The position numbers and the translations under genes are program-made. From the NCBI GenBank assembly GCA_964019135.1, contig OZ025258.1, positions 10,249,961-10,313,960 of the forward strand: a stretch of 64,000 bases of DNA, written 5' to 3'. The stretch comes from Arenicola marina (Eukaryota; Annelida; Polychaeta; Arenicolidae). Below the pieces are notes generated by a model. That model was not told where the DNA came from. It saw only the letters and a program-made list of their open reading frames with translations, and searched no databases. This document shows, one piece after another, positions 3,337 to 27,656 of this stretch; the first letter of the stretch is position 1, and each line of letters opens with the position of its first letter.

Positions 3337-5806
3337 TTATTTCTTCTTGGTGTCAGGGGGTACTTCTTTTTCCTCTTTGCTGCCAATGACATCTTTCTGC
3401 ACATCAGAGAGATTTATGCCATTTTCTTGAATGGCTTTCTGAAACAGATAAGATAAACTCACAATGGAAATATCTAAGGAACTGTCTTCTTTTGATTCTT
3501 ATTAAGCCAGTCTGGTTCCTGCATTCAAATGCACAGGATAAAAGTGATTGCGATGATGATATAAAATGTTCAACCAAACTAGATCTAGATACTAGAGATT
3601 CAAATCTCTGGAGCAATCAAGGATTATGATATAATAAAGCATTTTTAAAACTATATATTGTATTAATTATTTTTAAGCCCACACTAATGCCATTCATGGC
3701 TCTTCAGTTGCTCCTGCTAGCTGCTTATAGTACAAATCAAGGTAAGATAGAAATACAAGATGCAAATTAAGCCTAGCTACCAAGCCAGATTTTGTATATT
3801 CTAATGGTAACCAAATTAGAAAAAGAAATGTCTCCTGCTTACAAATCTACAGACAATAAATCTGAATACCTGATTTCAAGTTGAAACCCTTATACAAGAG
3901 TGAATAGCTTCATAGAGGGTTCATTGCATGGTTATTCCAGTCACAGGCCTGCGTCCACATCTTTTATATGTTAAAATTGCATGTCAAGTTCTTTCGCGCC
4001 AAAACTAAGACTATGTGAAATCTATATCAAAATTTGCAGAAAACTTGATGGTTTCCTTCTATAAATTCAGAAACCTGATTAATACACTAAAATAAAAAGT
4101 TATGGTAAATTGTTATCACAGGAAAGGCTAAGAGACACTATTTGGCAGTCTGGCATGGGTGGAGTATAGACAAAAGAAATCTTAAATGATTCAGGACTGA
4201 TTTTTATTTTGATCTTAAATGATTCAAGGACTGATTTTTATTTTGATCTTAAATGATTCAAGGACTGATTTTTATTTTGATCTTAAATGATTCAAGGGCC
4301 CATTTTTATTTAGACCTCTTTAGTTTTTGGTGGGAAAGAGCTCGACATGCAACTTTAAAATATAGGCAACCAGGTCCTGTAGCAATCATTCCATCTATAA
4401 TATACAGCTTGTCAGGTAGTAGCAGAGCACTTTTGTCTAAGGCTTGATTGAGAATGTTTTCTAAGGAGCTGGTACATCATCTTAGGCTCATTCTTTTCAG
4501 AAAAGCAGGCTCTTCATGTGTAGCCAACTTGCTAATTCTTGGGCGACAACCTGTCTAAAGATGGTCTTGTTGGGTACAGCAGTAGGCAGTAACGGATCAC
4601 TTTAGGCAGCAGCGGATCACGCCATCTAGCGGCCTGTTTTGACAGTGAAGCAGGTGTCTGAATGCAAGGACTGTCTCAAAAATCTGAAATTAGGTTGTAG
4701 ATGATTTAATATTGCATATAGTTTATAGTGTGGTATAAAATTCATAGCTTATTTTGATATTTTCAGAGTACCGCTACTGACATTGGGCCAATGATTCATG
4801 CCATGCCACTTGGCGACAAAGCTTGGTGGTAAAGCTTGGCAGCAAAGAGAAAATAGAGAATGCAATTTAGATGACAACAGCAATTCTGTTTTATGGAGGG
4901 ATCTGATTATTTTCTTGAAGGTTCAAGGTATATACAGCTATGTAAAAATTACTTCAGTGGTGTACAGATGTATTCACTTTAGCAAGAGTGGCCTGTTGAA
5001 ATCAAAGTTGCAGTTTCGCATGAGTACTCGCAGAGCAAATAGCTCGTTACCGGAAGTGCATTTGAGGTAAAAAAATAGTGTAAACATTGGTAGTACCTCA
5101 CGTTTTTGGACTTATTTTAGTCAGTGCTTAATTATCTTTGAAATTAGTCTGAATTTACTACATCTAGTGGCTTTTAATAGAAAAGATTCAACAGTGAACA
5201 ACAAAGTGATCCGTTACTGCCTGTGATCCATTACTGCCAGTGATCCATTACTGCCAGACAAGCTGTGTATATTACTGAAATATGGCCATACAAGAAAGCT
5301 GTGGTTGCATCTTACACCTTAGAAATGCCCTATTAGCATAGGTGCTTACAACAGCGGTAGAATTCATAACTCAAAATGCTGAATGTGGGCCATTTGGGGT
5401 TGTATTATGGGCAGTGATGCTTATACACATTCATCTACGGTAACAATATGAGCTACCTCACCAATTACATAATTCAAAAGCCGTCAACACATGTAACAAG
5501 TTATTACGGCTGATCTATACCGATATAAACAAGTATTTACGATATCTGTATATTGTCACTAGTCTAGACTACAGACGTACAGTCTACATTCTCAATGTAA
5601 CTTGCTACCGCAACTTGCAAGCTAAGTTTATTTCCATTTCTTTTCACGTTTCGTTTGCTGACCTTCACACAAGATTGGTACGTCTTGAATAGGTTTGCAC
5701 ACTCATCATTTGTGTTGCCTTTCAGAAACTTTTCTCTGAACCAATTGTTGAAACATTCATCATATCGAAATTTGAGATCCTGGCACTGTGGACTAATACT
5801 ATTCAT
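3337..5806 (-). CDS. TRIAP1: TRIAP1 / Mdm35-like twin CX9C protein, 2 exons
   Basis: Coding exons on the minus strand are 5663-5806 and 3337-3438, joined in phase 0 to give 81 residues. TRIAP1 (yeast Mdm35) sits in the mitochondrial intermembrane space, where it stabilises PRELI-family lipid carriers and supports cardiolipin supply. Both CX9C motifs are intact, [11 protein letters not shown] and [11 protein letters not shown], and FREKFLKG matches the family. Exon 2 starts KAIQENGI after a TTTCAG acceptor, aligning with human KAIKEKEI, and ends in a lysine-rich tail. The donor is AAG|GTCAGC, weaker than consensus; reading straight on gives a false 80-residue ORF. It lies head-to-head with GATC, as in human. 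The 2.2 kb intron holds a foldback element and a tandem repeat. Confidence 0.93.
4183..4305. repeat. 34-bp tandem repeat, about 3.5 copies
   Basis: Tandem copies based on CTTAAATGATTCAAGGACTG followed by ATTTTTATTTTGAT, inside the TRIAP1 intron. The copies are nearly identical, which suggests recent expansion. Confidence 0.8.
4585..5255. mobile_element. Non-autonomous inverted-repeat element in TRIAP1 intron
   Basis: The left end carries GGCAGTAACGGATCACTT and then a degenerate second copy (GGCAGCAGCGGATCAC). The right end holds three inverted copies of the same motif, GTGATCC(G/A)TTACTGCC. Nothing inside is coding. Iterated terminal inverted repeats around about 670 bp suggest a MITE-like element. 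The target-site duplication is unclear. Confidence 0.55.
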
Positions 5807-6187
5807 CTTGTGTTGATGTTGTCTTCTGACACCAAACTGATCTGTGTCGTCAGCGACCCACTACCACCCCGCGTGCGCTTGTTTTGACCGGATTACGTCG
5901 CAAAGCGCCGTTTCTGGCGCTACAATAAACATAGTGCGTCACCACATTGAAAGCCTATCTTAAATCCCGACGCATTTATATCAGTCTACTAGGCCTACTT
6001 TGTTGTTTATATTGTGAAAAAATCCCGTTAATAAAGCATGGGAGCACGACGTCAGAAAATGGCTATTTCTATCTTCCTTGGGACACTTTTCAGTGATACA
6101 CTTAAAAATGATGCATTAATGCGCGAGAATGAAGGTCAAGGACGCGCCCGGCAGCAGTCCACTTATCCAGTTATTATACAGTGTACC
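5807..6187. promoter_or_regulatory. Divergent TRIAP1/GATC promoter region
   Basis: Only 381 bp separate the start codons of TRIAP1 (-) and GATC (+), so this segment must serve as promoter and both 5' UTRs. It is locally CpG-richer than its surroundings and has a GCGTGCGC stretch near 5870 that resembles an NRF1-type site. The human pair is also head-to-head. No transcription start can be fixed from sequence alone. Confidence 0.7.
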
Positions 6188-27400: not shown

Positions 27401-27656
27401 CTGCCAAACTTGCCAAAGACTTAGCAGTGCTTAGTCTTGGCAAAGATAAACACCGAGCGATAATAAGATCACCTCGTGATTCTTTCTCCTCTTCCGAAAC
27501 AGTTTGGAACCCAAAGTGGGTATCTCTTGAAGCATTGTGTTCTTTCTGATCACTATTCGTATTGCTGGATGACACCGGCGAGTAACATCTTGACTGAAGA
27601 GTATTGTATCTCGCCAAATGTTTTAAGCACAATCGACTTCCCTTTAACATTGACAT
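21414..27656 (-). CDS. COQ5: 2-methoxy-6-polyprenyl-1,4-benzoquinol methylase COQ5, 7 exons
   Basis: Exons 27473-27656, 25125-25274, 24509-24865, 24040-24146, 22881-22969, 22585-22696 and 21414-21515 give 366 residues. COQ5 is the mitochondrial SAM-dependent C-methyltransferase of ubiquinone synthesis, part of the COQ complex. It opens with a basic presequence, then [31 protein letters not shown], the SAM motif [13 protein letters not shown] (about 104-116), [62 protein letters not shown] and the ending AAIHSGFKL. Exon 3 carries an acidic Ser/Asp/Glu-rich insertion, making the protein longer than the human one. The exon 6 donor is GC (AATCAG|GCAAGC), a GC-AG intron. The end of exon 3 is repeated five times in tandem with its donor; only the first copy keeps the frame. 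Confidence 0.96.
22073..22550. repeat. 45-46-bp minisatellite in COQ5 intron 6, about 10 copies
   Basis: Units based on AAACGGTCGAGGATAAGAT, then GAGATTGGAGTGTGTCTGGC. Variants alternate along the array. The unit is a multiple of three, which is why an artefactual 376-residue frame runs from here through exon 6. Confidence 0.9.
23316..23508 (-). mobile_element. tRNA-derived SINE, copy B (head missing)
   Basis: Shares GGACGCTTTAACCAC, GTCATATCGCGTCAAT, AGCCATGTCCC(T/C)GGGGGTAA and GATCTTTATCCTGCGACC with the fuller copy at 63245. It ends in a (CAAC)n-like tail at its low-coordinate end (GGTTGGTTGG on the plus strand). The tRNA-like head is absent. It lies in COQ5 intron 4. Confidence 0.75.
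24265..24560 (-). repeat. Five 60-bp tandem copies of the COQ5 exon 3 end plus splice donor
   Basis: Each unit encodes GCCATG-CTG/TTA/ATG-GACGTGGGC, then KKRAVQQGY, then a donor. Units 1, 3 and 4 in gene order have CCAAAGGTAA(C/T)TGA, unit 2 has CCAAATGTAACTGA, and unit 5 has lost the donor. The period is exactly 60 bp. Unit 1 (24501-24560) is the true exon end. The others lie in intron 3, and each carries a TGA after its donor. Confidence 0.95.
26035..26160. repeat. Short tandem repeat in COQ5 intron 1
   Basis: Repeated ATACCAAATGGATGCAAATA with TCCTT spacers, about four degenerate copies of 26-30 bp. Confidence 0.7.
26360..26500. repeat. Direct duplication in COQ5 intron 1
   Basis: Two degenerate copies of about 66 bp containing TATACAGCTG(G/C)AAAA(A/T)TAGGG and GTTTCATTGC. 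Confidence 0.65.
27095..27215 (+). repeat. Dispersed repeat shared with SRSF intron 1
   Basis: Combines two blocks found apart in SRSF intron 1: TCCTGCAAGCAAGCCGCTGT (near 15923) and CGCGACTGGACCCATATCGG (near 17810). It is therefore a longer copy of one repeat family of unknown class. Confidence 0.6.

Follow-up and report, generated by a model that had tools for sequence, protein, structure and literature searches.

A TRIAP1-GATC-SRSF-DYNLL1-COQ5 gene block in an invertebrate genome, in the order printed for human 12q24.31

Why should TRIAP1, GATC, an SRSF gene, DYNLL1 and COQ5 lie side by side in an invertebrate genome in the order found on human 12q24.31? The question is raised by a stretch of 64,000 nucleotides (the window; positions 10249961-10313960 of contig OZ025258.1, here C11) in assembly GCA_964019135.1, which is deposited under Arenicola marina and comprises 867 Mb in 762 contigs. 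We built gene models by six-frame reading, Pfam searches and splice-site fitting and examined 164 kb, namely the window with 50 kb on either side. Positions given below are those of the window unless a contig is named. As we strongly infer, the five genes were already a block in the ancestor that protostomes and deuterostomes share, and this block has remained intact both here and on human 12q24.31. The linkage is most likely older than the split between the two groups.

The region 3337-27656 is filled by TRIAP1 (-), GATC (+), SRSF1/9 (-), DYNLL1 (+) and COQ5 (-), and is bounded by the TRIAP1 stop at 3337 and the COQ5 start at 27656. The original prediction, which had been made from the sequence alone, had placed these five genes here on strands -, +, -, +, -, and the gene models and family matches bear it out. 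The strands and spacing of the models also agree with its count of two divergent and two convergent pairs within 24 kb. The coding models are complete for TRIAP1, SRSF1/9, DYNLL1 and COQ5, while that of GATC lacks the last short exon. All human proteins used as queries, for the block and for its flanks, were approximate sequences and were run with tblastn, a search that missed the second exon of TRIAP1 and the first two of GATC.

TRIAP1 has two exons and encodes 81 amino acids. Exon 1 (5663-5806, ATG at 5804-5806) matches UPF0203 (1.1e-19) and is the single match of this family in the whole genome; exon 2 (3337-3438, stop at 3337-3339) was placed by its AG/GT splice fit and reading frame. The best chains in the PDB are TP53-regulated inhibitor of apoptosis 1 (2.6e-19), followed by Mdm35. 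For GATC, four coding exons were modelled. The first (6188-6268, with the start and leader) and the second (6797-6847) are inferred from splice fit, while exons 3 (7090-7277, GatC family) and 4 (7542-7645, splice model) are 59% and 56% identical to human GATC. The protein matches GatC of Pfam (7.2e-11) and reaches 51.7 bits against TIGR00135 (gatC) of NCBIfam, above the cut-off of 47.1. A splice-fit search for the last coding exon beyond 7645 gave no convincing candidate. A 32-bp tandem duplication (7626-7692) spans the end and donor of exon 4. In a genome-wide GatC profile search the window exon on its own scored 19.4 bits, below the cut-off, and an open reading frame (ORF) on contig C7 scored 23.7 bits, which makes GATC one of the weaker points for orthology. 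The C7 ORF was set aside as unrelated solely from a look at its raw sequence.

The SRSF1/9 gene has four exons and encodes 254 amino acids, with SRSF1 as its top PDB match (1.9e-90). Exon 1 (18171-18340, ATG at 18338-18340) carries the first RRM (RRM_1, 4.8e-13), exon 2 (13311-13579) the end of this domain and a glycine linker, exon 3 (12690-12862) the second RRM with the SWQDLKD motif, also found by Pfam, and exon 4 (12218-12370, stop at 12218-12220) the RS tail, read in six frames; all four fit one splice model. The glycine linker is encoded by a degenerate 9-bp repeat (13372-13446) and looks longer than that of human SRSF1. All three exons that aligned to human sequences are nearer to SRSF1 than to SRSF9. 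Since the second RRM finds only one match in the genome, we take the gene as the single pro-orthologue of SRSF1 and SRSF9. DYNLL1 is a single coding exon (19092-19361; Dynein_light, 4.5e-43) of 89 amino acids, 92% identical to human DYNLL1, and its PDB matches are dynein light chains 2 and 1, near 1e-57. Three Dynein_light matches in the genome lie above the cut-off, the window copy at 147 bits and the others at 70 and 68.

COQ5 has seven exons and encodes 366 amino acids (Ubie_methyltran, 6.8e-85); the top PDB chain is 4obw (1.5e-62), a mitochondrial 2-methoxy-6-polyprenyl-1,4-benzoquinol methylase. Exon 2 (25125-25274) was found by Ubie_methyltran (4.4e-17) and the splice model, whereas the others were placed by alignment to human COQ5 with splice fitting: exon 1 (27473-27656, ATG at 27654-27656), exon 3 (24509-24865), exon 4 (24040-24146), exon 5 (22881-22969), exon 6 (22585-22696) and exon 7 (21414-21515, with the stop). 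Exon 3 contains an acidic, serine-rich insertion relative to the human protein, and exon 6 ends at 22585 with a GC donor (a GC-AG intron) in our model. A 60-bp tandem array of 4.8 copies (24275-24561) overlaps the 3' end and splice donor of exon 3; the intron therefore carries several near-copies of the exon end, which may serve as alternative donors, and the duplication at the end of GATC exon 4 is of the same kind. There are 17 UbiE-family matches in the genome, three of which are the window COQ5 exons, and a locus on contig C3 outscores every single one of these, another weaker point for orthology. Ten of the 17 matches, UbiE/COQ5-family methyltransferases, form an array at C3:53193039-53373018, separate from COQ5. 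Judged from sequence comparison, the gene copies compared with human are probably orthologues and not paralogues, because the TRIAP1 family and the second SRSF RRM each have a single match and the window DYNLL copy is by far the strongest.

Two published gene lists give TRIAP1, GATC, SRSF9, DYNLL1, COQ5, RNF10 and POP5 in that sequence. This matches the human order that the original prediction had given, and it is the order of the window. Since the two lists agree, they probably follow the map. The human strands of the five genes are presumably also those of the window. Human 12q24.31 differs in that SRSF9 stands where a single pro-orthologue, SRSF1/9, is found in the window. The first list also sets COX6A1 ahead of TRIAP1 and NRAV between DYNLL1 and COQ5 (with DYNLL1 spelled DYNL1). 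If 20,000 genes were ordered at random, the chance of any five-gene run with the same order and strands would be 7.8e-15, a figure that is a yardstick without a fitted model, as genomes do not begin from random order. The same order could in principle have arisen independently in both lineages, but this is improbable to the point of being negligible: at about 1e-14 under random order, common descent is the natural reading, and the printed human list for 17q22 again has an SRSF and a DYNLL gene as near neighbours.

The invertebrate host assumed by the original prediction is supported by the mitochondrial contig, C762, which points to a host that is probably an annelid. Judged at COX1 sites that we take to be conserved, its code reads AUA as Met, AGA as Ser and AAA as Lys. 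COX1 was identified by Pfam, the other protein genes by our own reading and the rRNAs from the gaps around tRNA-Val; on one strand the order is cox1-cox2-atp8-cox3-nad6-cob-atp6-nad5-nad4L-nad4-(rrnS-rrnL)-nad1-nad3-nad2. ARAGORN called 25 tRNAs on this contig against 22 expected, and the three surplus calls, including two from the opposite strand, were taken as false. In PMC2639372, the annelid mitochondrial order is described by four differences from the bilaterian pattern, and all four are present in C762. With AAA read as Lys and an annelid gene order, the mitochondrial contig led us to reject a deuterostome source for the window.

The wider linkage was sampled with probes for the families of six further genes of human 12q24.31: three matched C11, two matched other contigs only and one matched nowhere, at the level of families and not of established orthologues. 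The C11 matches are Orai (PF07856), malectin (PF11721) and Helicase_C_4 (PF13871, strawberry notch; one of two loci, the other being on C7), and ORAI1, MLEC and SBNO1 appear in the first human 12q24 list. The families are dispersed, at 16.9, 22.4 and 30.8 Mb of C11 or on other contigs. According to PMC11371463, non-clitellate annelids keep the bilaterian linkage groups that clitellates have lost, a pattern into which three 12q24 families on C11 fit. On this indirect ground, the host is more likely a non-clitellate annelid than a clitellate.

Part of the block also has a counterpart elsewhere in vertebrates. The human 17q22 list prints MSI2, CCDC182, MRPS23, CUEDC1, SRSF1, VEZF1 and DYNLL2, while 12q24.31 holds MSI1, SRSF9 and DYNLL1. 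The paralogous region thus shares the SRSF-DYNLL linkage with the window, although VEZF1 stands between the two genes and TRIAP1, GATC and COQ5 are absent from this list. The region looks duplicated in vertebrates, and since both copies carry the SRSF-DYNLL linkage, this linkage is probably older than the vertebrate duplications. In a chicken list, a single bin of 1 Mb contains COX6A1, TRIAP1, GATC, DYNLL1, COQ5, RNF10 and POP5, without map order. For vertebrates only, PMC9664204 assigns TRIAP1 and SRSF9 to the TRPV4 region of those gnathostomes that it covers.

What, then, has kept the five genes together? We lean, with somewhat more confidence than doubt, towards an inherited block kept as two bidirectional-promoter units, the rest being preserved by the rarity of tolerated breaks and by slow rearrangement. 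The five housekeeping neighbours would have been already assembled in the last protostome-deuterostome ancestor. Going by its anatomy, the block has most likely lasted in the form of two head-to-head units. TRIAP1-GATC and SRSF-DYNLL1 would each be driven by one compact bidirectional promoter, such that a cut would damage two needed genes. COQ5 and the convergent joints might have stayed because a 24-kb run of needed genes seldom tolerates a break, and slow rearrangement in this lineage may have helped to preserve them.

The spacing of the divergent pairs fits this model. TRIAP1 and GATC have their start codons 381 bp apart (5807-6187), SRSF1/9 and DYNLL1 751 bp (18341-19091); both pairs are head to head, and both gaps, which are candidate shared promoters, stay below the 1 kb that PMC2871058 gives as the customary limit of a bidirectional promoter. 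A putative intron in the DYNLL1 5' untranslated region (about 18689-19082) was noted by eye from splice-like signals near 18689 and 19083. If it is real, the SRSF and DYNLL1 starts are closer still. Further encouragement comes from PMC6292497, which reports that 25% of neighbouring protein genes in amphioxus are in bidirectional promoters and that these are enriched for housekeeping genes.

Both gaps were also scored for ETS, CRE, YY1 and CCAAT motifs and for CpG content against 1000 background windows, in 12 tests. The TRIAP1-GATC gap contains two CRE-like sites (reached in 105 of the 1000 windows) and a CpG observed/expected ratio of 1.16 (reached in 151), neither of them significant; ETS, YY1 and CCAAT sites are absent from this gap. 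The SRSF1/9-DYNLL1 gap holds two ETS-like sites at 18432-18444 (reached in 32 of 1000) and a YY1-like site at 18409, and its other five measures were reached in 81 to 260 background windows. Thus, the spacing is compatible with shared promoters, while the motif evidence is no help. At half of the joints the sequence makes the promoter mechanism plausible; it is proven at none. The proposal that shared promoters hold the block together therefore stands in part: both divergent gaps are under 1 kb, but motifs are not clearly above background and the convergent joints are left unexplained.

At these convergent joints, the original prediction had also invoked overlapping 3' ends. Overlapping or antisense 3' ends could lock both joints, and two of them have indeed been retained. 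We take NRAV to be an antisense RNA gene, and its printed position between human DYNLL1 and COQ5 would suit such an arrangement. In the window, 2,052 bp separate the stop codons of DYNLL1 and COQ5. The polyA-like signals closest to them, at 19626 (+) and 21347 (-), are 1.7 kb from each other and do not overlap; further polyA-like hexamers at 20596, 21060 and 21386 (+) and at 19831 and 19991 (-) would permit one. At the other joint, 4.57 kb lie between the end of the modelled GATC coding sequence and the SRSF stop, an upper bound given that the last GATC exon is outside the model. We consider it quite unlikely that such an overlap, if it exists, holds the joints.

Several observations weigh against the two-promoter explanation. 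None of the 12 tests survives correction for multiple testing, so that promoter motifs and CpG content are not clearly above background in the two gaps. In PMC2871058, short divergent gaps show no special conservation in metazoa and are not in excess in the fishes and non-vertebrate animals examined. The intervening VEZF1 on the 17q22 list suggests that a tight pairing of SRSF and DYNLL is dispensable, and the chicken list lacks SRSF9 although it holds the other four block genes. Beyond the block, the KNTC1 family (PF10493) was found only on C5, and the POP5/RPP14-type family (PF01900) on C2, both off C11; PF01900 does not separate POP5 from RPP14, and POP5 aligned over 37 residues. Finally, the block includes two convergent joints among its four, a class that PMC2871058 describes as much rarer among conserved pairs than divergent or co-directional ones. 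No part of the finding is less well explained than the persistence of these two joints. Shared promoters are therefore insufficient, and neutral persistence becomes a serious rival.

Neutral persistence would mean that the block is ancestral and that nothing holds it: with slow rearrangement, it would be one lucky survivor among thousands of sets of neighbours. We regard this as possible, if clearly short of probable. Both flanks look broken, as this explanation would have it. On the left, the nearest gene-like feature noted is a TRAF/meprin MATH-domain exon (+) at -1710 to -1279, in contrast to COX6A1 on human 12q24.31. On the right, the human list continues with RNF10 and POP5, neither of which was found in the flanks fetched. 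Over the 164 kb, where short exons can escape, COX6A1 and POP5 queries gave no tblastn match at E 0.01, and an RNF10 fragment gave one chance-level match (E 0.37, with an internal stop). A search with a RING regular expression found nothing, and a COX6A profile (PF02046) had no match in the genome, a result that the tool itself rates as uninformative. As far as the tested flanks show, the conserved run consists of the five genes.

The scatter of the other 12q24 families over C11 and further contigs likewise favours neutral persistence, and PMC8851819 states that it is still unclear whether constraint or low recombination causes microsynteny. However, the joints are uneven: all four internal ones are kept, against none of the two flanking ones seen, although a test would need more than six joints. 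The count for the flanks also depends on approximate queries, and the same search missed some true short exons, so that COX6A1 could have escaped it.

It is also conceivable that the five genes are bound by a genomic regulatory block or chromatin domain, with a regulatory element of one gene lying inside another. PMC8851819 names this as a cause of other ancient linkages, and the 4.6 kb of the first SRSF intron also speak for it. None of the five genes is known as a developmental regulator of the anchoring type, and this origin of the linkage seems very unlikely.

A broader form of co-regulation would treat the five genes as an ancestral unit rich in mitochondrial genes, with convergent and divergent joints both selected and the 24 kb acting as one expression domain since the first bilaterians. 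TRIAP1, GATC and COQ5 all act in mitochondria, and to have called the five unrelated neighbours was too strong. Even so, such a unit is in our judgment rather doubtful. We return to two promoter units within an inherited block as the preferred explanation.

The remainder of the window yielded few identifiable features. Ten chosen ORFs from the gaps and introns of the block had no Pfam match at 0.01, and scans of the window found neither a tRNA (ARAGORN with the bacterial code) nor an Rfam family. Just upstream of COQ5 lies a 3.4 kb satellite array (28383-31783) with a 21-bp unit, whose main part comprises about 153 copies and which is open in several frames. To the right of it, a probable multi-exon coiled-coil gene extends over 39146-52406 (+), and the seven exon candidates at 39-52 kb had family matches below the cut-offs or none. 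A frame of 466 codons is open at 52775-54172 (-) and has no Pfam or PDB match up to E 1. The right half also contains further large minisatellite arrays at 36162-37388, 43085-44682, 60805-62043 and 63526-63851, with units of 24, 23, 35 and 93 bp among others. Outside the window, tandem Galactosyl_T genes (one by Pfam, three more alike by eye) occupy -49137 to about -29046, and among them, at about -36961, a reverse-transcriptase-like ORF was noted by eye. Peptide methionine sulfoxide reductase genes lie at L024:8047-8541 (by Pfam) and at 107749-108198 (alike by eye).

To our knowledge, five-gene runs in the same order in a worm and in human are uncommon. Work by Irimia in 2012 and by Simakov in 2013 is said to have dealt with microsyntenic gene pairs and blocks of ancient origin in metazoans. 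At least three of the five gene names co-occur in 11 papers, none of which, going by title and abstract opening, deals with gene order across phyla, and among the matches listed in further literature searches none did so either. The text of PMC3815023 does not name TRIAP1, DYNLL1, SRSF9 or SFRS9, that of PMC2871058 does not name DYNLL1, GATC, TRIAP1, SFRS9 or COQ5, and in PMC5896119 SRSF9 does not occur at the start of a word. The block alone reveals no new mechanism. It does allow selection and slow rearrangement to be tested against each other at defined joints, two divergent and two convergent, and the paralogous vertebrate copy of one joint, SRSF-DYNLL, provides a natural comparison.

Among known systems, the two divergent pairs resemble the ancestral chordate bidirectional promoters of PMC6292497: they too join housekeeping genes head to head across a short gap. 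They differ in that the window pairs are known from sequence alone, and the passages of PMC6292497 do not carry these gene names. As a whole, the finding is a case of ancient metazoan microsynteny, a kind already known. The pairs and blocks described in PMC8851819 are neighbours that have been kept together across phyla, like the five genes of the window block.

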